64,000 nucleotides of DNA. Source: Streptomyces sp. NBC_01351. Its GTDB lineage: Bacteria; Actinomycetota; Actinomycetes; Streptomycetales; Streptomycetaceae. The number at the start of each line of letters is the position of its first letter. Positions within the stretch are counted from its first letter, which is position 1. Below are positions 26,872 to 40,998 of this stretch, piece after piece. Below the pieces are notes generated by a model. It saw only the letters and a list, made by a program, of their open reading frames with translations. It was not told the origin of the DNA and did no database searches. The position numbers and the translations under genes were made by a program. The stretch spans positions 310,001-374,000 of the forward strand of contig NZ_CP108356.1 in NCBI RefSeq assembly GCF_036237315.1. The letters are read 5' to 3'.

Positions 26872-27118
26872 GGGCTCCCCCTCGTGGGCTTCGGCTGCCG
26901 CGAACGATACGCGCGGGGCGGGGCCGGGCGGGAGCGCGCGCGTCGGGTCGTGACGGACCTTGGCCGGAGGTCATGTGCCGTTCGGCCACGGTGTCCCGAC
27001 CGGGTGTGGCCGCTCGGCATCTGGGGGCCGGCGCCTCGGCGTTCCTAGCCTCGGAGCGCCGGATGACAGTCGAGGTCCGGTTCACCGCAGACCGCCGACA
27101 AGACAGGGATGGCTCCCG

Positions 27119-28492
27119 ATGCCCCTCATGCGAATCGCCCGACCGATAGCGGCCGTTGGCGCGACGCTGCTGACCGCGCTCCTGGTGCCCCCGGGCGCGA
27201 ACGCGGCCCCGGCACCGCACCCGGCGTGCACGGCCCGGGTCCCCGGCGCGGAGTACGTGACCGGCGCCTGCCTCGCCGACCTCACCACCGCCGGGACCAC
27301 GGTGACCGGGCACACCGATCCGGCCGACTGGGCCGGGCTCGAAGCGCCCGGCGCGGTCAATCCGTCGGGGGTGAAGGGGGTCCAGCTGGACGGGTACTTC
27401 CCCGACACCTCGACCACCAACACCAACCACGGCTGGAACCACGACAGTCAGTTCGTGATCCGGCTGCCCGACCACTGGAACGGCGGTCTGGTCGTCGCCG
27501 GACCGCCCGGTGTCCGCGAGCAGTACGCCAACGACCGCCTGATCGCCGACCACGTGCTCGCGCAGGGGTACGCGTACGCGGCCACCGACAAGGGCAATAC
27601 GGGTGCACGGATCCACACGGACGGACGGCGCCCCGGCGACGCGGTGGCCGAATGGCACGACCGGGTGACGCAGCTGACGGTGGCCGCCAAGCGGACGGCC
27701 GCGCGCCACTACGGCCGGGCGCCCGTGCACACGTACATGGCCGGCGCCTCGGCCGGCGGCTATCTGGTGCGGTGGCAGCTGGAGAACCGCCCGGATCTGT
27801 ACACGGGCGGAGTGGAGCTGCACGGCCTGCTGCTCACCCCCGACAGCCCCAACGTCCTGGACACCGCCCCCGCCGCCCTGCGCGCCTATCCGCGCTACGC
27901 GGCCGGGGAGCCGGGCGCCCTGGAGGAGATGTACGCCGCCGGGTATCCGGAGGGGACCAGGCCCCTGTGGGAATGGCACTACCGCAACCAGTGGGACTCC
28001 CTCCAGCGGATCATGCGCGAGGAGATCGACCCAGGGTACGACGGCGACCGGGAGGCCGGGTTCCCCTTCTGCCCGGCGGGAGTTCAGCCGGGCTGCGACA
28101 CCGACTACGTGTACGCCGACCGTCCGCGCCGCGTGCACAGGACGGTGGAACGGCTGTCGCTGACCGGCCGGATCGGGCGGCCGCTGATCACGCTCCAGGG
28201 CACCCTCGACACCCTCCTGCCGATCAGCAGGAGCGGTGACGTCTACGCGCGGATGGTCGAGGACTCCGGGCGCGGCGGTCTGCACCGCTACTACCGGATC
28301 GCGGACGGGACGCACTCCGACGGCCTGGCGGCACCCTTCCCGCAGCTGGTCCGGCCGATGTCCCCGTGCCTGCGGACGGCTTTCGACGCGCTGACCGCCT
28401 GGACGGGGCCGGGCGGCACGCTCCCCCCGCCGAGCCGTACGGTGCCCAGGCCCGCGCCCGGGAGCGACACCGTGAACATGTGCTCGCTGTGA
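27119..28492 (+). CDS. Secreted alpha/beta hydrolase, tannase / 3-hydroxybutyrate oligomer hydrolase-like
   Basis: 457 residues. A signal peptide ends near PGANAAPAP. The nucleophile elbow is YMAGASAGGYL; a likely catalytic Asp is in LQGTLDTLLP and the His in ADGTHSDGL. Four or more Cys in the mature protein (ACTA, GACLA, FPFCPAG, PGCDTD) probably form disulfides. The layout fits secreted tannase/feruloyl-esterase-like hydrolases and their 3HB-oligomer relatives; which ester it cuts cannot be told. ATG 27119, with ATG 27128 also possible. Monocistronic, about 250 nt after the divergent kinase gene, with no clear promoter seen. Confidence 0.75.
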   Translation: MPLMRIARPIAAVGATLLTALLVPPGANAAPAPHPACTARVPGAEYVTGACLADLTTAGTTVTGHTDPADWAGLEAPGAVNPSGVKGVQLDGYFPDTSTTNTNHGWNHDSQFVIRLPDHWNGGLVVAGPPGVREQYANDRLIADHVLAQGYAYAATDKGNTGARIHTDGRRPGDAVAEWHDRVTQLTVAAKRTAARHYGRAPVHTYMAGASAGGYLVRWQLENRPDLYTGGVELHGLLLTPDSPNVLDTAPAALRAYPRYAAGEPGALEEMYAAGYPEGTRPLWEWHYRNQWDSLQRIMREEIDPGYDGDREAGFPFCPAGVQPGCDTDYVYADRPRRVHRTVERLSLTGRIGRPLITLQGTLDTLLPISRSGDVYARMVEDSGRGGLHRYYRIADGTHSDGLAAPFPQLVRPMSPCLRTAFDALTAWTGPGGTLPPPSRTVPRPAPGSDTVNMCSL

Positions 28493-28840: not shown

Positions 28841-30271
28841 TCAACAGCCGGCGCTGACCCCCTCCTCCGCCGGTGACGCGATGCGTCCCGCGTCCAGTAC
28901 GGCGGTACGGTCGGCCAGCGCGGCCGCGGCGGCCAGGTCGTGGGTGATGAACACCAGGGCGAGCTCCGTGCGCTCGCGGAGCTCCGCGAGAAGTTCGAGC
29001 ACGGCCCCGCGGGTGGTGGGGTCCAGTCCCGAGGTGATCTCGTCGCAGACGAGCAGCCTCGGCCGGGCGAGCAGGGCCCGGGCAAGCGCGGCCCGCTGGA
29101 GTTCCCCGCCGGAGAGCGCTCCCGGTCGGCGGGCGGCCGTGGAAGGGCTCAGGCCCAGCCCGGTCAGCGCCTCGGCGGCTTCCTCGCGGGCCGCCGCCGG
29201 GTCCGCTCCGCGCAGCCGGACGGCGGTGCGGGCGACCTGGTCGAGGACCGGCCGGTGTTCGTCGAAGGCCGCCCTCGCGTCCTGGAACACGTACTGGACG
29301 GCCGCCAGCTGGGCCCGGCTGCGCGCCCGCAGGCTGTTCGGCAGCGGTGCCCCGTCGAGCAGGATCCGGCCCCGGTGCTCGGCGTGCAGACCCGCCAGGC
29401 ACCTCCCCAGGGTGGTCTTGCCGCTGCCCGAGGGGCCGACCAGGGCGAGGCACTCCCCCGCCGCGACCGAGATCCCGACGTCGTGGAGCACGTCCACTGC
29501 GCCGCGCGCCGTGCGGTGCGAGGCCGTCAGGGCCTCGACCTCCATGCGGACCGTGCCTGTCGGCCGGCGTGCGCGCGGAATGCGGGGCGAGGCCTGCGGG
29601 CTCGGCGCGTCGAGCACGGCGTCGGCCGGTCCCCGGTCCACGATCCGGCCGCCGCGCATCACCACGACCTCGTCGGCCAGCTCCCGCACCACGTCGAGGT
29701 CGTGGCTCAGCAGGACGACGGCCATGCCCCGCGCGGCGAGGGCGGCCAGTTCGGCCACGATGCCCGCTTTGGTGTGTGCGTCCTGACCGGTCGTGGGTTC
29801 GTCGGCGACGATCGCCGAGGCCCCGAGCAGCAGTGCCTGTGCGAGCACCACGCGCTGCTGCTGGCCGCCGGAGAGCTGGTGCGGGAAGCGCCGCAGCACC
29901 TGCTCGGGGTCCGGGAGCCGGGCCAGCCGCAGCGCCTCGTGCACCCGCCGCAGCCTCTCCCGGCGGCCGCCTCCCGCGAGGGCGGCGATGTCCCCGAGGA
30001 GGGCGCCGACGCGCCGGGCCGGGTTGAGTACGGCGGCCGGGTGCTGGGGTACGTACCCCACCGCGCCCGGCCGGGTGCGTACGAGTCCCTCGACGCGGGC
30101 GCCCGGCGGGTACTCGCCGAGGAGCGCGAGGCCGGTGGTGGTCTTGCCGCTGCCGGAGGGGCCGATGAGGGCCGTGATCCGGCCGGCGCGGGCCGCGAGG
30201 CTGACGCCGTCGACGAGGGCCCGGCCGCCGATCTCCACCCGTAGGTCCCGTACTTCGGCGACCGTGCTCAC
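28841..30271 (-). CDS. ABC transporter, two fused ATP-binding domains (peptide/nickel importer type)
   Basis: 476 residues holding two complete NBDs. NBD1 has Walker A GPSGSGKTTTG, signature LSGGQQQRVVLAQALL and DEPTTGQD; NBD2 has GPSGSGKTTLG, LSGGELQRAALARALL and DEITSGLD. In Dpp/Opp/Nik systems the two ATPases are normally separate subunits (D and F, or D and E); here they are one chain. GTG 30271 overlaps the preceding permease stop (GTGA). Last gene of the ten-gene operon. It should energise uptake through the two permeases next to it. Confidence 0.87.
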   Translation of the reverse strand: MSTVAEVRDLRVEIGGRALVDGVSLAARAGRITALIGPSGSGKTTTGLALLGEYPPGARVEGLVRTRPGAVGYVPQHPAAVLNPARRVGALLGDIAALAGGGRRERLRRVHEALRLARLPDPEQVLRRFPHQLSGGQQQRVVLAQALLLGASAIVADEPTTGQDAHTKAGIVAELAALAARGMAVVLLSHDLDVVRELADEVVVMRGGRIVDRGPADAVLDAPSPQASPRIPRARRPTGTVRMEVEALTASHRTARGAVDVLHDVGISVAAGECLALVGPSGSGKTTLGRCLAGLHAEHRGRILLDGAPLPNSLRARSRAQLAAVQYVFQDARAAFDEHRPVLDQVARTAVRLRGADPAAAREEAAEALTGLGLSPSTAARRPGALSGGELQRAALARALLARPRLLVCDEITSGLDPTTRGAVLELLAELRERTELALVFITHDLAAAAALADRTAVLDAGRIASPAEEGVSAGC

Positions 30272-31062
30272 TTTCCCGTTCCTTTCCGGAGGGCCGCGTC
30301 GAACAGCAGGTTGGCGCCGGTCGACAGGGCCGCGATGAGGGCCGCCGGTATCACCACGGCCCAGGGCTGGAGGAACAGCCCGGTGCGGTTGCGGTCGACC
30401 ATCACCGCCCAGTCGGCGGCGTCCGGTTGGACGCCGACGCCCAGGAACGCGGCCGTGGCCACCAGGTACAGGGCCCCGGTGAGACGGATGCCGGCGTCCG
30501 CGGCGAGGGTGCGCCGCATCGACCGGGCGACGTAGCCGAGCGCCGTGCGCCACCAGGATTCGCCCTGCATGCGCAGCGCTTCGACGGCCGGCCGGGAGGC
30601 CACCTCCACCGCCGCCGCGTGGACCACGCGGGCCGCGTCCGGTACGGCGGCCAGCCCGACGAGCGCGGTCAGCGCGACGGGTCCGGGCGTCAGGGTCGCC
30701 GCCACGAGCAGTACGAGGAGCAGCGAGGGCACGGCGCTGAGCACGTCCAGCGGCCTCATCAGCGCCTCCTCCAGCCAGCCGCGCCGGGTGAGCGCGGCGG
30801 CGAGGCCGGCGGGCAGCGCGACGAGGTAGGCGAGCGCGGTCGCGGCGAGGGCCACGAGCACCACGGAGCGGCCGCCGAGCAGCACCTGCCGCCAGACGTC
30901 GCGGCCGCTGAAATCGGTGCCGAGCCAGTGGTCCGGGCCGGAGGCGAAGGAGACGGAGCGCGGTCCGGGGGGCCCGGCGAAGAGCGGTCCGAGGAGGGCC
31001 AGCAGCAGGGGTACGGCGACGAGTGCGGCGGCCAGGGCGTACCGGGCGGGAGCGCGTTTCAC
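30268..31062 (-). CDS. ABC importer permease (DppC/NikC type)
   Basis: 264 residues, GTG start, about six membrane helices. The N-terminal region (GPDHWLGTDFSGRDVWRQVLLGGR) is the hallmark of the C-type permeases in peptide/nickel importers. The cytoplasmic coupling loop contains EALRMQGESWWRTALGYV, close to the EAA motif. It overlaps both neighbours by 4 bases. Works with the B-type permease and the double ATPase. Confidence 0.86.
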   Translation of the reverse strand: MKRAPARYALAAALVAVPLLLALLGPLFAGPPGPRSVSFASGPDHWLGTDFSGRDVWRQVLLGGRSVVLVALAATALAYLVALPAGLAAALTRRGWLEEALMRPLDVLSAVPSLLLVLLVAATLTPGPVALTALVGLAAVPDAARVVHAAAVEVASRPAVEALRMQGESWWRTALGYVARSMRRTLAADAGIRLTGALYLVATAAFLGVGVQPDAADWAVMVDRNRTGLFLQPWAVVIPAALIAALSTGANLLFDAALRKGTGK

Positions 31063-32006
31063 GCGGCCACCCCCGCCCGTGGGGCGAAGCGGCGGGCGAC
31101 GAGGTCGGCGCCGAGGTTGGCCAGGACGGTGACGACTCCGAAGACGACGGCCATGCCCTGTACGACGGGCACGTCCCGGGCGGCGACGGCCTCGATGAGC
31201 ACGGTACCCAGCCCCGGGACGACGAACAGGGCCTCCACGACGATGACCCCGCTCAGCAGCCAGTCGACGGTGCGCGCCAGCTGCTGCGTGGCGGGCGCCA
31301 GCGCGCACGGCAGGGCGTGCGCCCAGCGGATGCGGGAGCCGGAGATGCCGTACCGGCGCGCCTGGGCCACGTACGGCGAGGCCATGGCCTCGATCATCCC
31401 GGCGCGCACGAGACGGCTGAGGGTGCACACGGGGCGGGCGGTGAGCACGAGTACGGGCAGCACCAGCACGACGGGGTCGGCGGCGAGGTCCGTTCCGACG
31501 GCGGTGGCCGGGAGCCAGCCCAGGTGGAGGGCGAACAGAGCGGCCAACAGCACGCCGAGGGCGAATTCGGGTACGGCGTGCACGGCCAGCGTCACGGCGC
31601 TGACGGCCTGGTCCACCGGGCCGCCCTCGCGGCGGGCGGCGAGGACGCCGAGGCCGACCGAGAGGGGCACGAGCAGGGTCAGGGTGGCGGCGGCGAGGAT
31701 CAGGGTGGGGCCGAGACCGGCCGCGAGGTGTCCGGTGACGGGCCGTCCGGTGACCAGGGAGGTGCCGAGGTCGCCGTGGAACATCCCCGCGACCCAGTCC
31801 AGGAGCCGCTGCTCGGCGGGCCGGTCCAGTCCCATGGCCTCGCGGATCCGGGCGATGCGTTCGGGGTCGGGCTGGTCGCCCGCGAGGGCGACGGCCGCGT
31901 CGCCGGGCAGTGCCTCGGTGAGGACGAAGATGATCAGGACGACGGCCGCCGTCTGCCCCAGGCCGAGGAGCAGGCGGCGGCCGATCCAGGGAAGTCCCGT
32001 GGTCAC
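31059..32006 (-). CDS. ABC importer permease (DppB/NikB type)
   Basis: 315 residues, GTG start, about six membrane helices. It has the B-type features: TEALPGDAA after helix 1, the long periplasmic loop with RIREAMGLDRP, then GDLGTSLVTGRPV, and the EAA-like loop SPYVAQARRYGISGSRI. Family partner of the C-type permease. Both ends overlap neighbours by 4 bases (GTGA). No frameshift. Confidence 0.86.
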   Translation of the reverse strand: MTTGLPWIGRRLLLGLGQTAAVVLIIFVLTEALPGDAAVALAGDQPDPERIARIREAMGLDRPAEQRLLDWVAGMFHGDLGTSLVTGRPVTGHLAAGLGPTLILAAATLTLLVPLSVGLGVLAARREGGPVDQAVSAVTLAVHAVPEFALGVLLAALFALHLGWLPATAVGTDLAADPVVLVLPVLVLTARPVCTLSRLVRAGMIEAMASPYVAQARRYGISGSRIRWAHALPCALAPATQQLARTVDWLLSGVIVVEALFVVPGLGTVLIEAVAARDVPVVQGMAVVFGVVTVLANLGADLVARRFAPRAGVAA

Positions 32007-33568
32007 GCGAGCCAGGTCTTGTCGAAGCGCGCCCAGTCGAGGGTGTTGGCGGGGGCCGTCTTGGACACCCCGTGCACCTTCGGCGAGGTGGCGACGATCC
32101 AGTCGGCGAAGCCCCAGATCAGGAAGCCGCCTTCGTCGTGCAGCCGGCGCTGCATGCGCTCGTAGAGGGCCGTGCGCTCCTTCTCGTCGCGGGTGGACTG
32201 GGCCTGCTGGTAGAGGTCGTCGAAGTCCTTGTGCTGCCACTTGGTGGCGTTGGTGGTGGATCCGGTGAGCAGGCGCTGGTTGACGTGGGACTCGATGGGC
32301 ATGGCGCCGGAGCGGTAGGAGGCAAAGGTTCCGCCGGAGAGGATGTCCTTCCAGTAGGTGTCCTTGTTGCCGACCTTGACCTCCACGGTGACTCCGGCCT
32401 TCGCCGCCTGCTCCTTGAAGATTCCGGCGGCCTCGATGAAGCCGGTGGCGGCGGGGGCGGTGTCGAGGGTGACCTTGAGGCCTTCGGCGCCGGCCTCCTT
32501 GAGAAGGGCGCGGGCCCGGTCGAGGTCCTGGGTGCGCTGGGGCAGGCCGGCCGCGTAGTACTGGCAGCCCTTGCCGAAGAGGTCGTTGCCGATCTCCCCG
32601 GCCCCGGAGAGGGCTCCGTCGACGAGCTCCTTGCGGTCGGCGATGAGGAAGAAGGCCTGGCGGACCCGCTTGTCGTCGAAGGGCGGCCGGTCGGTCTTCA
32701 TGACGAAGCCCTGCATGGCGCTGCCGGGCAGCCGTACGACCTCGATCCTGCCCTTGCCCTCGTGGGCGCGGGCGCTGGCCGGGGTGAGCTCGTGGGCGTA
32801 CTCGACCTGGCCGCCGAGGAGCGCGCTCACCCGCGCGGACTCCTCCGCGGCGATGACGAATTCGAGCTCGTCGAGGTGCGGGGCGCCCTCCCAGTAGGCG
32901 GGGTTGCGCTCGACGAGGAGGCTGCTGCCGGGCTTGAAGGAGACGAAGGTGAAGGGGCCCGAGCCGACGGGCTGCGCGAAGTCGGTGGCGTCCTTGGGGA
33001 CGACGTACGCGCCGAAGGCGGCCAGCGTGTTGGGGAATTCGGCGTACGGCCGCTTGAGCCGGAACTCGACGGTGGAGGCGTCCACGGCGCGGCTCGCCGC
33101 CAGGTCGATCGGTTCGAGGGAGGCCTTCGCGCGGAAGGTGCCCTTCGGGTCGGCGATCCGGCGGTAGCTGTACAGGACGTCTTCGGCGGTGACGGGCCGG
33201 CCGTCGTGGAAGGCGGCCTTGCGCAGGGTGATCCGCCAGGTGTCCAGGGTCTCGTTGGGCTCCCAGCGTTCGGCGAGGCGCGGTACGGGGGCGAGGTCGG
33301 CGCCGAAGTCGGCGAGCTTGTCGAAGAGGGCCTTGGCGCGGGCGGCGTCGACGAAGAGGTTGGCCGCGTGCGGGTCGAGGGTCTCGGCGGCGCCGCCGCC
33401 GGCGAAGGCCGCGCGCAGGCGTCCGCCGGGCTTGGGCGTGCCGGTTCCCCCCTTGGCGTCGCTCGCGGTGGTCTTGGGGGTCCCGCAGCCCGTGGCGAGG
33501 GCGAGGGTGGTGGCGGAGCCCGCGATGAGGAGGGTCCTGCGGGCGAAGCCGGTCCGGCGGTCGTTCAT
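32003..33568 (-). CDS. ABC substrate-binding lipoprotein (SBP_bac_5, peptide/nickel/opine type)
   Basis: 521 residues. The signal peptide has a twin-Arg pair (FARRTLL) and a lipobox ending at Cys28 (LATGC), so the protein is an outer-face lipoprotein. The mature part has the family signature LAERWEPNETLDTWRITLRKAAFHDGRPVTAEDVLYSYRRI in order, then PVGSGPFTF and VRQAFFLIADR. Family members bind di/oligopeptides, nickel or metallophores such as opine-metal complexes. In this operon it most plausibly captures the product of the biosynthetic genes with bound metal. ATGA overlap with the methyltransferase upstream. Confidence 0.87.
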   Translation of the reverse strand: MNDRRTGFARRTLLIAGSATTLALATGCGTPKTTASDAKGGTGTPKPGGRLRAAFAGGGAAETLDPHAANLFVDAARAKALFDKLADFGADLAPVPRLAERWEPNETLDTWRITLRKAAFHDGRPVTAEDVLYSYRRIADPKGTFRAKASLEPIDLAASRAVDASTVEFRLKRPYAEFPNTLAAFGAYVVPKDATDFAQPVGSGPFTFVSFKPGSSLLVERNPAYWEGAPHLDELEFVIAAEESARVSALLGGQVEYAHELTPASARAHEGKGRIEVVRLPGSAMQGFVMKTDRPPFDDKRVRQAFFLIADRKELVDGALSGAGEIGNDLFGKGCQYYAAGLPQRTQDLDRARALLKEAGAEGLKVTLDTAPAATGFIEAAGIFKEQAAKAGVTVEVKVGNKDTYWKDILSGGTFASYRSGAMPIESHVNQRLLTGSTTNATKWQHKDFDDLYQQAQSTRDEKERTALYERMQRRLHDEGGFLIWGFADWIVATSPKVHGVSKTAPANTLDWARFDKTWLA

Positions 33569-34386
33569 GAGGTGCTGTCTCCGTTGCTGTGGTGATGGGG
33601 CTTCAGGCGCGCTACGAGGTGCAGCCGGTCGGCGCTCGCCGTCGCGTGCGGGGCGTCGCCCTCGCGCCAGGGCGGGTCGGTCCTGGGGCCGGGCCCGTCG
33701 TTGAGGTCGAGCGCCTCGAAGCCGGCGGTGTCCAGGAAGTGGCGGAGCTCCTGCGGGAAGAGCAGACGCCAGGCGGAGTGCTGCTCGGCCGGGGGCGTGC
33801 CGTCGTCGGCGGACCAGATCCGGTGGCGGCGCAGGAGTTGCGCGGCGTGGTCGATGTGCAGGGTGGTGCGGGAGGTGTAGGTGATGCCGTGCCAGGTGAA
33901 CCCGGCGGTGCGCGGGCCGTCGAGCAGCTCGGTGTTGCCGAGGAAGAAGGCCCCGTTGCGCATTTCGGCGACGAGCAGTCCACCGGGGGTGAGGTGGGCG
34001 CGGCAGCGGGCGAGGAAGGCGGTGAGGTCCTCGTTGGTGTGGCAGTAGAGCAGGGCGCTGTCGAGGCAGACGACGGCGTCGAAGGTCCGGGGCGCGAGGT
34101 CGAAGTCCCGCATGTCGGCGCGGTGGTAGGCCGGTCCGTGGTGCCGGTCCCGGGCGTGGGCCAGCATCGCCTCGGAGGTGTCGATGCCGGTGACCTCGCG
34201 GTCGGCCCGGTGGTGCAGCCAGGCGGCGTCGCGTCCGGTGCCGCAGCCCACGTCGAGCACGCGGGGCCCGGCGCCGTGGTGGGCCAGGACGGACTCGGCC
34301 CAGCGGGCGGCGAGGTGGTCGGGGTCGGGGAAGCGCTCCTCGTAGAGCTCGGGGTGGTCGGTGAGGAGGTTGCCGGAGGTGGTCAT
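33565..34386 (-). CDS. Class I SAM-dependent methyltransferase in the metal-chelator operon
   Basis: 273 residues. Motif I VLDVGCGTGRDA, motif II GIDTSEAML, post II FDAVVCLDSALLY, motif III LTPGGLLVAEMRNG. A C-terminal acceptor region of about 100 residues (WHGITYTSRTTLHIDH) follows. It is translationally coupled on both sides, between the MFS exporter and the binding lipoprotein, so it probably modifies the small molecule made by the operon (N- or O-methylation). The substrate cannot be seen. The C-terminus is His-rich (KPHHHSNGD). Confidence 0.82.
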   Translation of the reverse strand: MTTSGNLLTDHPELYEERFPDPDHLAARWAESVLAHHGAGPRVLDVGCGTGRDAAWLHHRADREVTGIDTSEAMLAHARDRHHGPAYHRADMRDFDLAPRTFDAVVCLDSALLYCHTNEDLTAFLARCRAHLTPGGLLVAEMRNGAFFLGNTELLDGPRTAGFTWHGITYTSRTTLHIDHAAQLLRRHRIWSADDGTPPAEQHSAWRLLFPQELRHFLDTAGFEALDLNDGPGPRTDPPWREGDAPHATASADRLHLVARLKPHHHSNGDSTS

Positions 34387-35996
34387 CGGCTCTCGCTTGT
34401 CTGACGGATGTCGGCGGACAGGGGCTGGGCGGGCGGGGGCTGGGCGGGCGCCGGTTCGGCGGGCGGTGCCCCGGCGGGCGGAAGTTCCCCGGGCAGGGCC
34501 CCGGCGGGCGCAGGCCCTGCGGGCACGGCCCCGGCAGGCGCAGGTTTCGCGGACGGAGCCCCGGCAGGGGCACCTCCTACGGACGCGGCCTGCGCAGGCG
34601 CGGGACCCTCGGGTACGGCCCCGCCGGACGTAGACCCTGCGGGCACGGCCCTGGCAGGCGCATCTCCCGCGGACCCGGCCTTCGCAGGCGCAGGGCCCTC
34701 GGGCACGGCCTCGGCGGGCGACGGTTGCCGGGGCGCGTCAGGACGGGTTCCGGTCGCCCCGGCGGAATCGGCCGACGCGGCGGCCTCCGGGAGGGCGCGT
34801 CTTCGGTGGAGACGGGCCACGGCCGCCGCCGAGGCCAGGCCGAGGGCGAGGCAACAGGCGAAGGGCAGCCAGGCCAGGCCTGTGTGTCCGGCGGTGTCCA
34901 TGGCCCAGCCGACGGCGGCGCTGCCGGCGGCGGCCGCGATGCCGGACACCGCGTAGAAGAGCCCGTAGTAGGTGCCGGTGAGGCTCTGGCGGCCGAAGGC
35001 GGGTATCAGCTCCATCACGAACGGCTGGGCGATCATCACGCCGAAGTGCAGCAGCAGCGCGCCGGCGAGCACGAGCAGCAGGTACCCCGGGTGCGGGGAT
35101 CCGGCGCCCGCGACGAGCATCGGGGGGACGAAGCCGAGGCCCATGACCGCCAGACCCACCGATATCCAGCGGGCGCGGCTGCCGGTCCCCTTCAGCCTGC
35201 GGGTGATGCGGAGCTGGAGGAGGAGGTTGGCGACGGTGCCGGCCAGGAAGAGGAGCCCGATCGAGCCGTCCCAGCCGGAGGCTCGTACCGCCGCGTGCGG
35301 CAGCAGCAGGTACAGCTGGTTCTCCAGTCCGTACATGCCGATCATGGCGAGGGAGAAGGCGAGGAACCCCCGGCTGCCCGCCGCCTCCCGCCAGTCGCCC
35401 GTCAGCCGCGTCTCCGGGGCCGGGACCTCCCGCGCGGGCAGCACGAGGAGTTGGGCGAGGGTGAGCGCCGCGAAGATCCCGGCCGCGGTGACGGCGGCGG
35501 CCCGGAAGTCCACCAGGAGGAGCAGCGTCCCGAGCAGCGGGCCGAGCAGGGCCCCGGTGGTGGCGAAGACGTTGAACAGCGCGAAGGCCTCGGCCTTGCG
35601 CTCGCCGGCCTCCTGGGCGACGTAGGTCCGTACGGCGGGGTTGAAGAGGGCCCCCGCCAGCCCGCTGAGTATGGACGCGGCGAGCAGCAGCGGCAGCGCG
35701 TCGCCGAGTGCGAACATCGCGAACCCCAGCGTCCGCAGGGCACAGCCCGCGATGATCACCCCGCGGGCGCCGAGCCGGTCGGCGGCCGAGCCGCCGAGCA
35801 GGAAGAGACCCTGCTGGCTGAGGTTGCGCAGGCCGAGTATCACGCCGACGGCGGCCGCGGAGAGCCCGAGGTCCTGGGAGAGGTGCGTGGCGAGGTACGG
35901 GATGAGCAGGTAGAAGCCGGTGTTGACGCCGAGCTGGTTGACGAGGAGCAGGCGGACGGCGAGCGGGAAGCCGCGGACGGCGTTCAGGGTCTTCAC
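34383..35996 (-). CDS. MFS exporter with long Pro/Ala/Gly C-terminal tail
   Basis: 537 residues; twelve membrane helices within the first ~410 residues. The A-loop motif DRLGARGVI after helix 2 is MFS-typical. The family is that of MdtH/staphyloferrin-type drug or siderophore exporters. The last ~120 residues are a low-complexity tail with repeats of the form PAPAGAxPxGP, including two long near-copies (AVPEGPAPAKA and AVPEGPAPAQA). The tail is likely translated, because its stop forms the ATGA overlap with the methyltransferase start. GTG 35996 overlaps the upstream gene. Likely exports the product of the operon. Confidence 0.82.
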   Translation of the reverse strand: MKTLNAVRGFPLAVRLLLVNQLGVNTGFYLLIPYLATHLSQDLGLSAAAVGVILGLRNLSQQGLFLLGGSAADRLGARGVIIAGCALRTLGFAMFALGDALPLLLAASILSGLAGALFNPAVRTYVAQEAGERKAEAFALFNVFATTGALLGPLLGTLLLLVDFRAAAVTAAGIFAALTLAQLLVLPAREVPAPETRLTGDWREAAGSRGFLAFSLAMIGMYGLENQLYLLLPHAAVRASGWDGSIGLLFLAGTVANLLLQLRITRRLKGTGSRARWISVGLAVMGLGFVPPMLVAGAGSPHPGYLLLVLAGALLLHFGVMIAQPFVMELIPAFGRQSLTGTYYGLFYAVSGIAAAAGSAAVGWAMDTAGHTGLAWLPFACCLALGLASAAAVARLHRRRALPEAAASADSAGATGTRPDAPRQPSPAEAVPEGPAPAKAGSAGDAPARAVPAGSTSGGAVPEGPAPAQAASVGGAPAGAPSAKPAPAGAVPAGPAPAGALPGELPPAGAPPAEPAPAQPPPAQPLSADIRQTSESR

Positions 35997-37048
35997 CGTC
36001 CGGCCCCCGCCCGGGCCGGTCTGACGCCGAGTCCGGCCCGGTTCGCGGCCCGTACGGTCCCGTCCGCGCCGCCGATGCCGGTCCACGGGTCCTCGGCGAG
36101 CAGCAGGTGCCCGTCGAGGTCGACCCAGCGTGCCCGGTCGGCGAGGTGCACGGCGGGGGCGATGCCGAGCGAACTGGCGGTGAGGCAGCCGAGCATCAGG
36201 TCGGTGCCGCTGCCGCGCAGGGCTTCGTGGATGCGCAGGGCGGCGCGCACCCCGCCGCACTTGGCGAGTTTGACGTTGACGCCGTGGACCAGGCCGGCGA
36301 GCGCGACGGCGTCCTCGTAGGAGACCGCGTCCTCGTCGGCGATCACGGGGATCGGGGATTCCTTGGCGACCCGGGCCAGGACGTCGGGCCGGCCTGGTGC
36401 GACGGGCTGTTCCACGGCGCCGACGCCGAGCGCGGCGAACCGCGGCAGCAGGTCGAGGGCCTGGGCTTCCGTCCACGCGCCGTTGGGGTCGAGCAGCAGG
36501 GCGGCCCCGGGCGCTCCGGTGCGTACGGCTTCCACGCGTGCGAGGTCCTCGGCCGGATCGGGGGATCCCGCCTTGACCTTGAGGACGGTGAAGCCGCTCA
36601 TGGCGAGCCGGGCGGCTTGGGCGGCGGCCGGTACCGGGGCGGTGATGCCGATCGTACGGGCGGTCGCGGCGGCGGGGGCGGTGGGCGTGCCGAGCAGCCG
36701 GTGTGCGGGCTCGCCCGCCCGCTTGCCCACCAGGTCCAGCAGGGCGGCCTCGACGGCGGCCAGTACCCCGGGCGGCAGCCCGTCCCAGGCGGGGTGGCCG
36801 CTGCCGGTCTCGGCCCAGGCGGTCTCCGGGTCGGGGAAGCGCTCGGTGGCGGCGCGCACCGACTCCAGGTGCTTGTGGATGGCGGCGGTGGGCAGCCCGA
36901 GGTAGTCGCTGCTGACGGCCTCGCCCCGGCCGCGCAGCCCGCCGTGCTCGATCACGACCTCGACGGCGTCGCGGCGGGACATCACCGAGCGGGAGATGCG
37001 CAGGGGTTCGGCGAGTTCCAGGCCGGCGGTGTGCCGGGTGAGCTTCAC
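35993..37048 (-). CDS. Enolase-superfamily enzyme, dipeptide-epimerase-like
   Basis: 351 residues of the muconate lactonizing enzyme / L-Ala-D/L-Glu epimerase group. The catalytic KxK is KVK at 157-159, metal ligands Asp187 (LDPNG), Glu213 (VEQPV) and Asp238 (IADED), and the second catalytic Lys 263 (VKLAKCGG). The capping domain loop LRISRSVMSRRDAVEV is also typical. Such enzymes racemise an amino acid next to a peptide or acyl bond. In this operon it would epimerise an intermediate or the ligase product. GTG start, 4-bp overlaps on both sides. Confidence 0.84.
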   Translation of the reverse strand: MKLTRHTAGLELAEPLRISRSVMSRRDAVEVVIEHGGLRGRGEAVSSDYLGLPTAAIHKHLESVRAATERFPDPETAWAETGSGHPAWDGLPPGVLAAVEAALLDLVGKRAGEPAHRLLGTPTAPAAATARTIGITAPVPAAAQAARLAMSGFTVLKVKAGSPDPAEDLARVEAVRTGAPGAALLLDPNGAWTEAQALDLLPRFAALGVGAVEQPVAPGRPDVLARVAKESPIPVIADEDAVSYEDAVALAGLVHGVNVKLAKCGGVRAALRIHEALRGSGTDLMLGCLTASSLGIAPAVHLADRARWVDLDGHLLLAEDPWTGIGGADGTVRAANRAGLGVRPARAGAGR

Positions 37049-38133
37049 GCGGCGCCTCCGCGGGTTGGTGCGAGGACGGCCTTGCAGCGGGCCCAGCCGG
37101 TGGCTTCGACGGCGTGGGGGTGCGGGATCTCCAGGGGGCGGACGGCGCGGACGGCGGTGTCCAGGCCGTGGGTGCGGCAGAAGTCGTCGTCGTAGACGGT
37201 GTCGAGGTAGCGGTGCGGTCCGTCGGGGAAGACGGTGGCGACGACCGCGCCGGGCTCGGTGCGGGCGGCCCAGGCGGAGACGAGGGCGACGGCACCGGTG
37301 CTCCAGCCGCCGCTGACGAAGGCGGAGCGGGCGAGCCGGCGGCAGGCGTCCACGGCTTCGGCGGGCCCCACCCAGTGCACTTCGTCGAAGGCCTCGTGGG
37401 CGACGTTCGCGGGGTGGATGCTGCTGCCGAGTCCGCGCATCAGGCGGGGACGGGCGGGCTGTCCGAAGATGGCCGAGCCGACGGAGTCGACGCCGATGAC
37501 CTTCAGGCGGGGCCAGCGGCGGCGCAGCGGGGCCGCGAGTCCGGCGCTGTGGCCGCCGGTGCCGACGCTGCACACGAGCACGTCCAAGTGGTCGAGCTGT
37601 GTGGTGAGTTCGGTGGCCAGCGAGCGGTAGCCGGCGGCGTTGTCCGGGTTGTTGTACTGGTCGGGCCAGTACGCCCCCGGCATCGAGCGGAGCACCTCGC
37701 GCAGCCGGGCGATCCGCGCGGCCTGCCAGCCGCCTTCGGCCGCCGGGCGGTCGACGAGTTCGAGGCGGGCGCCGTGGCTGCGCAGCAACTGGCGCATGGA
37801 CGGTTCGAGTTCGGTGTCGCCGACGAGGACCACGGGGTGGCCGAGGGCCTGGCCGGCGAAGGCAAGGCCGATGCCCAGGGTGCCGGAGGTGGATTCCACG
37901 ACGGGGGCGCCGGGCAGCAGTTCGCCGCGTGCGCGGGCGCCGGTCAGCATGGAGACGGCGGCGCGGGCCTTCATCCCGCCGGCGCCGAGGCATTCGAGTT
38001 TCGCCCAGAAGCCGGGGTGGCGGTGCGGCAGGTCGGCGCGGATCCGGGCGAGCGGGGTGCGGCCGAGGAGCGGCAGCAGGTCGGGGTTGGCGGTCCGGGT
38101 CTGCGGGCGGGGCAGGATCGGGGTGACGGTCAC
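37045..38133 (-). CDS. Cysteine-synthase-like PLP-dependent enzyme
   Basis: 362 residues, fold-type II PLP enzyme. The Lys in GGMKARAA (Lys55) is at the place of the internal aldimine Lys, and the phosphate/substrate loop reads STSGTLG (81-87) where O-acetylserine sulfhydrylases have TSGNTG. A glycine-rich PLP loop is VGTGGHSAG. Relatives include SbnA-type enzymes that make 2,3-diaminopropionate precursors for staphyloferrin B, as well as cysteine synthases. It probably performs beta-replacement with an unusual nucleophile. The loop difference argues against plain cysteine synthesis. 4-bp overlaps on both sides. Confidence 0.8.
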   Translation of the reverse strand: MTVTPILPRPQTRTANPDLLPLLGRTPLARIRADLPHRHPGFWAKLECLGAGGMKARAAVSMLTGARARGELLPGAPVVESTSGTLGIGLAFAGQALGHPVVLVGDTELEPSMRQLLRSHGARLELVDRPAAEGGWQAARIARLREVLRSMPGAYWPDQYNNPDNAAGYRSLATELTTQLDHLDVLVCSVGTGGHSAGLAAPLRRRWPRLKVIGVDSVGSAIFGQPARPRLMRGLGSSIHPANVAHEAFDEVHWVGPAEAVDACRRLARSAFVSGGWSTGAVALVSAWAARTEPGAVVATVFPDGPHRYLDTVYDDDFCRTHGLDTAVRAVRPLEIPHPHAVEATGWARCKAVLAPTRGGAA

Positions 38134-38993
38134 CGGATCCCCCCGTAGCGGTGGATGACGCCGGGGCCGCCGTCGAGCCAGAAGAAGGGGTAGGGCTCGG
38201 CGGAGACGGCGTGCACCCCGGCGCCGAGGAAGCGCGGGAGTACGGCGCTGCCGGTCTGGGCGAACATGACGAGGGGCTTGCCGGTGGCGGCGGCGTGGTC
38301 GAGCAGCGGCTGGAAGGTGCCGTTGCCCAGCGTCATGCCGGAGGCGAGGACGGCGTCGCAGTGCGCGAGCTCGGCGAGCGCGTCGGTCCGTACGGGCTCG
38401 CCCCATTCGGTGGTGCCGCCCTTGAGGTCGCAGGGCGTGTACGAGGTCCCGCGCTCGCGGAGCCCCTCCAGCAGCGAGTTGACGACGCCGACGACCAGGA
38501 CGCGGCGCACTCCGGCTTCGGGAAGGAGGTCGACGACGGCTCGGGCGCGGGCCCGGGAGCGGAGCAGCGAGGTGCCGGCCGGGATGGCGTAGGGGCGGGC
38601 TCCGTGTTCGGGGGTGTGCGGGCGGACGTGCGTCAGGTAGGCGTCGAGGGCGGCGATCCGTACGGGCCGGAGCGGGTGGTCGAGCAGGTCGGCGACGGTC
38701 GCGCCGACGCAGTCGTCGAGCGCGGCCGGGGGCAGGGCGCCGGGTTCCACGGCGCAGGAGCCGACGGCTGCGGCGAGGCGCAGGCTGAGCACCTCGTTGC
38801 GGTAGCCGGAGGCGCGGCCTTCGTGGCGTACGGCCTGGGCGGTGGTGAAGGCGAGGGCCACGCGCTGCCCGGCGGGGTCGGGGCCGTAGGCACCGGCGCG
38901 GACCTGTCCGAGGAGGTCGTCGACGGTACGCACCCGGGGTTCGTGCGGGGTGGGGGCGGAGGTGCGGGGAGAGGTGGGTGCGGGGGCGGTCAC
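38130..38993 (-). CDS. DUF364-like Rossmann protein (putative heavy-metal chelation domain)
   Basis: 287 residues. The N-terminal half has a DUF4213-like start (VALAFTTAQAVRHEGRASGYRNEVLSL). The C-terminal Rossmann-like half has VLVVGVVNSLLEGLRERG, CDLKGGTTEW, HCDAVLASGMTLGNGTFQPLLD and FAQTGSAVLPRFLGAGVHAVS. This is how I recall the DUF364 'heavy-metal chelation' family, which is not biochemically defined to my knowledge. It sits between the ATP-grasp and PLP enzymes with 4-bp overlaps, so it belongs to the biosynthetic module. The role could be metal handling or a SAM/nucleotide-linked step. Confidence 0.7.
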   Translation of the reverse strand: MTAPAPTSPRTSAPTPHEPRVRTVDDLLGQVRAGAYGPDPAGQRVALAFTTAQAVRHEGRASGYRNEVLSLRLAAAVGSCAVEPGALPPAALDDCVGATVADLLDHPLRPVRIAALDAYLTHVRPHTPEHGARPYAIPAGTSLLRSRARARAVVDLLPEAGVRRVLVVGVVNSLLEGLRERGTSYTPCDLKGGTTEWGEPVRTDALAELAHCDAVLASGMTLGNGTFQPLLDHAAATGKPLVMFAQTGSAVLPRFLGAGVHAVSAEPYPFFWLDGGPGVIHRYGGIR

Positions 38994-40279
38994 GCGTTCA
39001 CCGCCGCGGTCTGCTCGGCGGGACACAGCTCGTAGGCGGGGCGCAGGCGGGCGATCAGCCGCTCGGCCCGCGCGCGGGCGCCCGCGCCTTCGGTGTCGGC
39101 GGTCATGACGTGGCCGAGGTACTCGTTGTTGCTGGTGGCGGGCCGCACGGCGCGGCCCGGTTCGGCGAGGGTGAGTTCCACGACCCCGGGCTCGCCCCGC
39201 ACCTCGTCGGCTCCCTCGACGCCGGTCAGGATCCCGCCGTCGGAGGGCAGCAGGAAGGCGATGGCGGCGCTGTGCACCCCGGTCGGGCGGACGGTGAGGT
39301 CGGGCGTGCGGCCGAGGGCGACGTCCACGCAGGCGGCAGCGAGGTCGACGCCCGTGACGTGGCGGACGAGTTCGGTGATGCGGTTGCCGGCGGGGCGGGG
39401 GTTGACCTCGATCAGGCGCGGCCCGGCGGGGGTCAGTTTGAGTTCGGTGTGGCTGACGACGTGGTCCAGGCCGAGTGCGGAGACGGCCGCCACGGCGGTG
39501 TCCGCCGCCTCGCGCACCCGCTCCGGGCCGATGTCCGCCGGGAACATGTGGCCGGTCTCGATGAAGGCGGGCGCCCCGCCGATGCTCTTGTCGGTGACGC
39601 CGACCACGTGCGTCGTACCGTCGAAGGAGACGGTCTCGACGCTGACCTCGGGGCCGGTGAGCAGCTCTTCGAGGAGGATGACCGGGGCACGCTGCTGCCC
39701 CCGGGCGTTGACGGGGAACTCGGCCAGGGCCCGGCAGGCCCGCTCCAGCTCGCGCTCGTCTCCGACCTCGCGCACGAGCATGCCGCCGCACAGGTCGGCG
39801 GGCTTGACCACGAGGGGGTAGCCGATCCCCCGGGCGGCCGTCAGCGCCTCCTCGGTGTCGGCGCAGAGCGCGAAGCGCGGTCCGGGCACCCCCGCCTCGG
39901 TCAGCACCCGGCGGGTCAGGTCCTTGCGGCAGGCGTTCTCGACGGCTCCGGCCGCGGGGCCGGGCAGGCCCAGTCGCTCCGCGACGCGTGCCACGGCGGG
40001 CAGGTAGTAGTCGCAGGAGGAGACCACGCCGTCGAAGCCGAGCACCGCGTGCAGCCGCTCGACGAGCGGGAGCAGGGCCTCCACGTCGTTGGTGTCGGCG
40101 GTGATGAGGTTGCGCGCCAGGAGCAGGGGGTGCGGGCCGCCGTCGGCCGGGGCGGAGCGCAGGTAGTGGTGCAGGTCCCGGGTGAGGAAGGTGAACTCGT
40201 GTCCGCCTTCGCGGATCGCCCTGGGCAGGAGCCTGCTCATCGACCCCACCCAGCTTTCGATAACCAGTACGTGTCCCAC
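38990..40279 (-). CDS. ATP-grasp carboxylate-amine ligase (L-amino acid ligase-like), first gene of the operon
   Basis: 429 residues. An N-terminal Rossmann-like domain (VLVIESWVGSM) is followed by the ATP-grasp fold: GYPLVVKPADLCGGML (phosphate loop), VILLEELLTGPEVSVE, and the metal-binding RLIEVNPRPAGNRI. The closest functional group would be peptide-bond-forming ligases that join free amino acids (BacD/YwfE-like). It would build the backbone of the operon's product. GTG 40279 has GAGGAAG about 6 nt upstream. Promoter and Zur-like site lie at 40369-40397. Confidence 0.85.
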   Translation of the reverse strand: MGHVLVIESWVGSMSRLLPRAIREGGHEFTFLTRDLHHYLRSAPADGGPHPLLLARNLITADTNDVEALLPLVERLHAVLGFDGVVSSCDYYLPAVARVAERLGLPGPAAGAVENACRKDLTRRVLTEAGVPGPRFALCADTEEALTAARGIGYPLVVKPADLCGGMLVREVGDERELERACRALAEFPVNARGQQRAPVILLEELLTGPEVSVETVSFDGTTHVVGVTDKSIGGAPAFIETGHMFPADIGPERVREAADTAVAAVSALGLDHVVSHTELKLTPAGPRLIEVNPRPAGNRITELVRHVTGVDLAAACVDVALGRTPDLTVRPTGVHSAAIAFLLPSDGGILTGVEGADEVRGEPGVVELTLAEPGRAVRPATSNNEYLGHVMTADTEGAGARARAERLIARLRPAYELCPAEQTAAVNA

Positions 40280-40368
40280 GGGACTTCCTCTCGACCGCTG
40301 TCACAGCTCTCGGGCATACGTGCGGAACGGCGAGCGCCTGGCAGGCGGCGTCCGGTCCGACCGAAAGG

Positions 40369-40397
40369 AAGCTATCGGAAATCGTTTTCATTTCCAA
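40369..40397 (-). promoter_or_regulatory. Promoter of the ten-gene operon
   Basis: On the minus strand TTGGAA (40392-40397) and TAGCTT (40369-40374) are separated by exactly 17 nt. This gives a leader of about 85 nt to GTG 40279. The spacer is AT-rich and holds the Zur-like site. Confidence 0.5.
40377..40395. promoter_or_regulatory. Zur-like operator between the operon and the GNAT gene
   Basis: GGAAATCGTTTTCATTTCC has 5-bp inverted arms (GGAAA/TTTCC) around an AT-rich core. The core GAAATCGTTTTCAT resembles actinobacterial Fur-family zinc boxes (GAAAATnATTTTCA type). It stands out from the very GC-rich neighbourhood and occupies the spacer and -35 of the leftward promoter. It does not resemble the IdeR/DmdR iron box. 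No protein binding is proven. Confidence 0.5.
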
Positions 40398-40425
40398 TAC
40401 CGCGATTTTCCGCTACGGTGGGATC

Positions 40426-40998
40426 ATGGAAGATCTGAGAGAGCGTCAGACCGCGGAGGTTCACGACCTGGGGGCCTACCAGGTACGACACGCGGGACCG
40501 GAGGACGTGCGGGGCGCCCGCAGCGTCATGCTGGACACCTTCTACCGGGAGTTCGACTACGGGTACGTGCCCGAGTGGCACGCCGACGTGGTCGACATCC
40601 GCGGCACCTACCTCGACGACCCGCGTCACGCCCTCGTCGTGGCCGTGCGGGACGGCGAGGTGGTGGGCACCTGCGCCGTGCACTCCCGGGGGCCCGCCCA
40701 CCCACCGCACCCGCGGTGGCTGACCGAGCGCTACCCGTCGGGCCGCACCGCCCAGCTCCTGCGGGTGTACGTGCGCCCCGAGCACCGGCGGCACGGACTG
40801 GCCCGCGCCATGGTGCGGGCGGCCTGCGCCTTCGCTGCCGGGGTTCCGGGCTACGAGCGCGTCTACCTGCACACCAATGTCGACATCCCCGGTGCGGAGG
40901 GGTTCTGGCGCAGCCTGGCCACCGAGGTCTGCGACGCCCGCACGACGGGCGAGCACGGCGGGTACGGGACGGTCCATTTCGAGATCCCGCTCCCGTAG
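40426..40998 (+). CDS. GNAT-family N-acetyltransferase, divergent from the metal-chelator operon
   Basis: 190 residues. GNAT core: YQVRHAGPEDVRGARSVML (first strand/helix), ALVVAVRDGEVVGTCAVHS, then the acetyl-CoA loop RVYVRPEHRRHGLARAMVRAA and YLHTNVDIPGAEGFW. It would acetylate an amine. TACGGT at 40414-40419 lies 6 nt before the ATG, so the mRNA is probably leaderless. Its promoter overlaps the Zur-like site, suggesting co-regulation. It may belong to biosynthesis or to self-protection; either is inference. Confidence 0.82.
   Translation: MEDLRERQTAEVHDLGAYQVRHAGPEDVRGARSVMLDTFYREFDYGYVPEWHADVVDIRGTYLDDPRHALVVAVRDGEVVGTCAVHSRGPAHPPHPRWLTERYPSGRTAQLLRVYVRPEHRRHGLARAMVRAACAFAAGVPGYERVYLHTNVDIPGAEGFWRSLATEVCDARTTGEHGGYGTVHFEIPLP

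Follow-up and report, generated by a model that had tools for sequence, protein, structure and literature searches.

The subject of this report is a run of ten minus-strand genes (28841-40279) in Streptomyces sp. NBC_01351, within a 64,000-nt stretch of DNA (C1:310001-374000, hereafter the window) whose own numbering is used for the features below. A first-pass annotation had read these genes as a set for making, exporting and re-importing a possibly zinc-responsive metallophore, with a divergent GNAT gene beside them, and every one of them was found in place. With the starts chosen here, adjacent genes overlap by 4 bp at each of the nine junctions, and the ten therefore likely form a single translationally coupled operon. 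The operon, the region upstream of it and the supporting family matches are as follows (PLP, pyridoxal phosphate; SAM, S-adenosylmethionine; ABC, ATP-binding cassette).

38990..40279, minus: ATP-grasp enzyme of L-amino acid ligase type, first gene; PF13535 and PF18603 (LAL_C2), above cut-off
38130..38993, minus: DUF364 protein, enolase-N-like and Rossmann-like; PF04016
37045..38133, minus: SbnA-family PLP enzyme of cysteine-synthase fold (PALP); best match SbnA in NCBIfam and PDB
35993..37048, minus: enolase-superfamily (MR_MLE) enzyme, dipeptide-epimerase/DgcA-like; PF13378
34383..35996, minus: MFS exporter whose Ala/Pro/Gly-rich C-terminal tail is coded by repeats; PF07690, best NCBIfam match MdtH, below cut-off
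33565..34386, minus: class I SAM methyltransferase; PF13649, nearest PDB entries CalS10 and sugar N-methyltransferases
32003..33568, minus: substrate-binding lipoprotein (SBP_bac_5) of the Nik/Opp/Dpp family; PF00496 (E 6e-81), nearest NCBIfam Opp5A_nikA, below cut-off, CntA also matched
31059..32006, minus: ABC permease (BPD_transp_1), NikB/Opp2B-like; PF00528, Opp2B 225 of 350 bits
30268..31062, minus: ABC permease (BPD_transp_1), NikC/Opp2C-like; PF00528, Opp2C 123 of 300 bits
28841..30271, minus: double ABC ATPase fused in one gene, NikD/NikE- and CntD/CntF-like; PF00005 in two stretches, with nikD, nikE, CntF and CntD among the best matches, all below cut-off
40376..40390, minus: Zur-type box TGAAAACGATTTCCG between the operon and the GNAT gene; 12/15 to TGAAAATGATTTTCA
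40426..40998, plus: divergent GNAT acetyltransferase, with the box region in common with the operon; PF00583

Zur-type boxes upstream of the operon

Zinc responsiveness had been claimed without evidence, and the box now lends it some. It sits 111 bp upstream of the ATP-grasp gene, and the 15-mer TGAAAAYGATTNYCG, or a near form of it, is found 63-156 bp before the start of the first gene in the window and in 16 relatives. Passages of one study give the Zur motif of Streptomyces coelicolor as tGaNNatSatNNtCa (PMC5472717), with which the boxes of many relatives agree fully save at the last base.

Conservation was assessed in 80 loci, the best 80 of 562 relatives from a scan of genomes with the DUF364 alignment, which come from Streptomyces (76), Kitasatospora (two), Embleya (one) and an unclassified actinobacterium (one); single loci are cited by L-numbers such as L047. 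A box matching at least 11/15 positions lies upstream of the operon in 78 of the 79 testable loci, with L160 set aside because it has no upstream sequence and L089 reaching 10/15. At 11/15, the reversed consensus was found upstream in 0/80 loci and mononucleotide shuffles gave 1/400. Over the 1,561,804 bases of the loci there are 69 boxes of at least 12/15, 61 of them within 300 bp upstream of the operon. Separately, four loci (L109:7043, L119:7046, L124:7036 and L128:7008) have a second box of 13-14/15, some 1.7 kb before the operon begins.

The exact 15-mer of the window has one further copy in the genome, between divergent rpmB/rpsN (L28/S14) and rpmG/rpmE/cobW/rpsR (L33/L31/CobW/S18) paralogues; such ribosomal paralogues and a CobW-type gene are given as Zur-controlled in S. 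coelicolor in excerpts of a further paper (PMC6103462). At the znu locus of the same genome, beside a Fur-family gene, the start of znuA carries two related 12/15 boxes, of which one overlaps the called start. A scan for iron boxes with a 19-base consensus, run on six stretches from the four loci L047-L050, found no match better than 11/19. A promoter-region Zur-type box conserved in relatives is one mark of a member of a Streptomyces Zur regulon, and the operon has one. The window's box by itself would not convince; it is the conserved boxes that make zinc control of the operon a well-supported prediction.

Conservation and distribution

When the gene order is sought in other actinobacteria, as the first-pass annotation had proposed, it recurs complete in 70 of the 80 loci, and in a second sample all ten genes are present in 14 of 17 A/B-type loci (20 loci fetched). 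Four of the other ten loci are cut by a contig edge (L117, L134, L135 and L149), and in L109 the order fails solely through a permease just below the identity threshold. The ATP-grasp gene is present in all 80 loci and the enolase gene in 79, the one exception stopping at a contig edge. The ten-gene arrangement is far beyond chance, and as a conserved unit it argues for the make, export and re-import logic suggested at the outset. On the opposite strand, the GNAT gene accompanies the operon in 27/80 loci, and a hydrolase with a secretion-like N-terminus and weak aminopeptidase matches in 38/80. In the window, a convergent gene downstream of the operon (26960-28492) shows weak tannase/feruloyl-esterase similarity.

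Relatives of the DUF364 protein, of the operon or of the sister type described below, were found in 172/392 genomes sampled from the genus (at E 0.001, with a few weak matches), in 117/293 genomes of the order, where a single genus out of nine accounts for all of them, and in 7/396 genomes of the phylum, six of the same genus and one a partial match elsewhere. In L047 (11859-13855) a DUF364 gene and a PLP gene stand alone under a 13/15 box, next to genes for an NMT1/SBP_3-type transporter, a luciferase-like monooxygenase and a flavin reductase. The pair was considered as a minimal two-gene version and set aside; as it is flanked by other transporters and oxidoreductases, it may be a remnant, and it does not count as support here.

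Family assignment and catalytic residues

The ATP-grasp enzyme carries both domains expected of an L-amino acid ligase, ATP-grasp_4 at 67.8 bits (cut-off 27) and LAL_C2 at 65.8 bits (cut-off 29.4). Its nearest PDB entry is 3vot, the L-amino acid ligase BL00235 (E 8.9e-31), and its nearest NCBIfam model PRK02186, through the N-terminal part (213 of 625 bits). The DUF364 gene product scores above 23 bits against PF04016 and shows the two-domain fold, which places it in that family.

The PLP enzyme scores 256 bits against the SbnA equivalog model TIGR03945 and does not reach its cut-off of 349.95, and its best PDB matches are the SbnA structures 5d84-5d87; by these matches it is a relative of SbnA whose equivalog status is not certified. 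Residues were counted with relatives below 45% identity, or outside 0.7-1.4 of the length of the window protein, left out. The PLP lysine K55 is kept in 77/77 rows that reach that position, and a threonine occupies, in 81/81 rows, the place of the asparagine in SbnA's TSGN loop. In the enolase, KxK, D187, E213, D238, K260 and DxD are invariant in 78/78 rows; KxK, the metal ligands, the second lysine and DxD are what we take to be the catalytic motif of dipeptide epimerase/DgcA enolases. The protein falls below the equivalog cut-offs, with 218 of 400 bits for DgcA and 118.6 of 500 and 118.4 of 343 for the L-Ala-D/L-Glu epimerase models. The C-terminal tail of the MFS protein, roughly 110 residues, is coded by 15/30/90-bp tandem repeats (34411-34720), and an alignment of 75 rows shows no conservation of its columns.

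A sister type of locus

A second kind of locus shares part of this gene set. It was sampled in 23 loci, twenty fetched ones together with L048-L050, and its DUF364 proteins are 41-46% identical to that of the window among the matches listed. In all 23, DUF364 is accompanied by a PLP enzyme of the SbnA family and by an MFS protein from one or the other of two families, and SbnA is the best match of the PLP enzymes of both types. The ATP-grasp enzyme of the window is unmatched in 23/23 sister loci and the enolase is partly matched only in L173. A GHMP kinase match occurs in 20/23 loci, in four of them at only 33-36% identity and in another position. FecCD is present together with its binding protein in 20/23, and L171 has no match to any importer query. 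L166 and L174 are hybrids, in which sister-type enzymes stand with Opp/Nik-type importer genes replacing FecCD; L166 has a 14/15 box and L174 no 12/15 box.

Zur-type boxes of at least 12/15 are found in 17/23 sister loci, against 0/23 for the reversed control, and of at least 11/15 in 22/23, a count that carries little weight because the whole stretch of 16.8-20 kb was scanned. Types A/B and C occur together in 3/293 genomes, 12.2 being expected (Fisher p 2.8e-4, kinship not corrected for). Such rare sharing of a genome is as expected if the two are alternatives for one job. The methyltransferase of the sister type was tried as a nicotianamine-synthase-like protein and dropped: its model, of modest confidence (predicted local distance difference test score, pLDDT, 73.2; built from five sequences), is similar to methyltransferases, HemK2/N6AMT1 among them. 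The matches listed for this model do not include nicotianamine synthase, which excludes nothing.

Probable zinc acquisition and the explanations that rival it

We consider it probable that the operon serves zinc acquisition under repression by Zur, its products building a small zincophore and recycling it. Its pathway is likely of neither the non-ribosomal peptide synthetase (NRPS), the NRPS-independent siderophore (NIS) nor the opine kind, with beta-substitution by the SbnA-like enzyme as the probable scaffold step. Since the sister type keeps the PLP enzyme with DUF364 and shows no ATP-grasp match, scaffold building is best tied to the SbnA-like enzyme. The earlier proposal of a modified di- or tripeptide-like chelator is thereby narrowed: the constancy of the ligase and the enolase, with the invariant residues of the latter, keeps a peptide-like unit possible, whereas the scaffold is better ascribed to the PLP enzyme.

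Several observations weigh against this assignment. The window box differs from the consensus at three positions, a tolerance at which the whole genome yields 23 matches (one place counted on both strands) and the reversed control 3, and several of the remaining three-mismatch matches fall inside called genes. The Zur regulon table of S. coelicolor, as far as it is represented in excerpts of PMC6103462, holds no such operon. Five of the 80 loci are without part of the operon though no contig edge intervenes, L091 and L092 for a methyltransferase match only and L087, L095 and L097 for four to six genes. L047 has the box, DUF364 and the PLP enzyme, its other operon genes being unmatched except for an unrelated-looking ABC ATPase. 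Six of the 23 sister loci have no 12/15 box, and in the co-occurrence count a bit score of 435 served to separate the types. The PLP enzyme has a glycine (VGTGG) where one PDB sequence of SbnA has a serine (VSTTG), which we presume to be the natural, substrate-binding residue. Finally, none of the ten operon proteins reaches a curated NCBIfam cut-off among the matches listed, so that the substrate of each is only a guess.

An unlikely alternative would have the operon import foreign peptides, or the metal complexes of other organisms, under zinc starvation and remodel them or break them down so that zinc or amino acids are released; the roles of the epimerase, PLP enzyme and methyltransferase would then be catabolic or detoxifying. 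The Nik/Opp/Dpp-type importer would suit such a role, as would the enolase, the DgcA/dipeptide-epimerase family including catabolic members, and the seemingly secreted hydrolase with weak aminopeptidase matches on the opposite strand in 38 of the 80 relatives. Synthesis is suggested instead by an amino-acid ligase that consumes ATP and by the conservation of an MFS exporter, and the sister type retains the PLP enzyme, DUF364 and the exporter while the family of its importer changes.

There is only a slight chance that the product is a metallophore with nickel, cobalt or copper as its main cargo, or else an antibiotic or toxin under zinc regulation, with Zur control acting just as the trigger. 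The importer parts do resemble NikA and NikDE, and staphylopine-type ligands carry several metals; against this, the box matches that of the zinc regulator, is common to the znu and ribosomal paralogue loci, and occurs in the same kind in the sister type with its FecCD importer. That the box is no working Zur site and the operon an ordinary amino-acid or peptide secondary-metabolite cluster is very improbable, for although the support is sequence-based and the window box imperfect, nearly all testable relatives retain an upstream box and most strong boxes lie in that one promoter region.

For a zincophore operon, the following course may be proposed, in which the chemistry and the role of DUF364 are what we infer from family and context. 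Once zinc is exhausted, Zur would leave its box, as the position and conservation of the box suggest, and the operon would be transcribed. The SbnA-like PLP enzyme would most likely activate O-phospho- or O-acetyl-L-serine and link its beta-carbon to an amine; in SbnA, the beta-carbon of phosphoserine is joined to the amine of glutamate. With no SbnB-type partner to split it, the product of this condensation may stay intact as an N-substituted 2,3-diaminopropionate; such a metal ligand, of aminopolycarboxylate type, should be good for zinc. The GHMP kinase of the sister type would fit a phosphorylated hydroxy-amino-acid substrate. DUF364 may act on the same scaffold. The ATP-grasp ligase and the dipeptide-epimerase-like enolase could between them attach an amino-acid unit and invert it, and decoration of the product would fall to the methyltransferase. 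The MFS protein would then export it and the Nik/Opp-type ABC system re-import the zinc complex.

A broader proposal, which could equally well prove right or wrong, is that DUF364 and the SbnA-family PLP enzyme form the core of a new zincophore biosynthetic class, present in about 40% of the Streptomyces genomes sampled and scarcely beyond their family, with several chemotypes (ligase/epimerase, GHMP-kinase and swapped-importer hybrids), and that DUF364 catalyses an undescribed chelator-building step.

Significance and a second candidate locus

Zincophore pathways are so far few and mostly of the NRPS, opine or ethylenediamine-disuccinate (EDDS) type. Because a DUF364 gene of either type is carried by so many genomes of the genus and order, a zinc ligand that has so far gone unseen may be in use among many antibiotic producers. 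For DUF364, which we take to have been an orphan family since 2010, the operon provides a physiological setting open to test, and zinc starvation or deletion of zur in a laboratory Streptomyces offers a simple means of searching for the compound.

The same genome holds, outside the window, a second Zur-like box, TGAAAATGAGTGTCA (13/15; C1:7892376, locus L083:6444-15417). It precedes a run of genes for a LysA-like decarboxylase, an SbnB-like protein, a MATE-like protein, a HisC-like aminotransferase, an SbnA-like protein, a Peripla_BP_2 protein, a FecCD-like protein and an ATPase, of which the MATE, FecCD and ATPase genes were named by eye from translations. This locus is another candidate metallophore locus.

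Comparison with known metallophore systems

The first-pass annotation had held that the gene set lacks NRPS, IucA/IucC and nicotianamine synthase-like genes and so falls outside familiar metallophore pathways, which agrees with what was found. The whole genome has 19 condensation domains and five IucA/IucC matches, none of either within the window. Nicotianamine synthase (PF03059) has no match in the whole genome, although a CntL too distant for PF03059 would escape; the same search of 14 control genomes found a match in one. No opine dehydrogenase (CntM) was found for the ten proteins in Pfam, nor among the NCBIfam matches listed, and no operon protein matches the SbnB-like family (OCD_Mu_crystall, PF02423). 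Two marks of known classes are present: an exporter and an importer of the kinds seen in opine-like clusters (MFS or EamA; Opp or FecCD), and the SbnA-like PLP enzyme of EDDS-type clusters. Membership of the opine, NRPS, NIS and plain EDDS classes was dropped, because from each a defining gene is absent. In the open-licence literature, which was the scope of the search, no description of the operon appears among the matches listed.

The EDDS pathway presumably uses an SbnA-like enzyme and needs an SbnB-like one. Lacking an SbnB/ornithine-cyclodeaminase gene, the window operon differs from it and has instead ATP-grasp, DUF364, epimerase-like enolase and methyltransferase genes. The likeness lies in control: the [S,S]-EDDS pathway of Amycolatopsis japonicum is, in the portions of the sources available, likewise a Zur-controlled chelator pathway in an actinomycete (PMC12161575, PMC6103462, PMC9252823), and its genes were reached via Zur boxes (PMC12161575, PMC9252823).

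With the opine-like zincophores staphylopine, pseudopaline and bacillopaline, the operon has in common a racemase/epimerase logic, an MFS exporter and an importer of Opp or FecCD type (PMC7438024); actinobacterial opine clusters, in the part of the same source seen, have FecCD importers and some also Opp importers (PMC7438024). Unlike them, it stands in a genome without a PF03059 match, and no opine dehydrogenase is among the matches listed for its ten proteins. Coelibactin of S. coelicolor, as described in passages of two papers, is also a Zur-controlled zincophore candidate of Streptomyces (PMC5472717, PMC6103462); its pathway is an NRPS one, whereas the window has no condensation domain. 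With the SbnA/SbnB module of staphyloferrin B, the likeness is the PLP enzyme, which is nearest to SbnA in NCBIfam and PDB, but the operon has no SbnB-type gene, the window no IucA/IucC, and the SbnA equivalog cut-off is not reached. Dhaf4260 and PH1506, proteins of the DUF364 family (PF04016), have no function assigned; the DUF364 protein of the window, in contrast, is tied to an operon that carries a zinc-regulator box.

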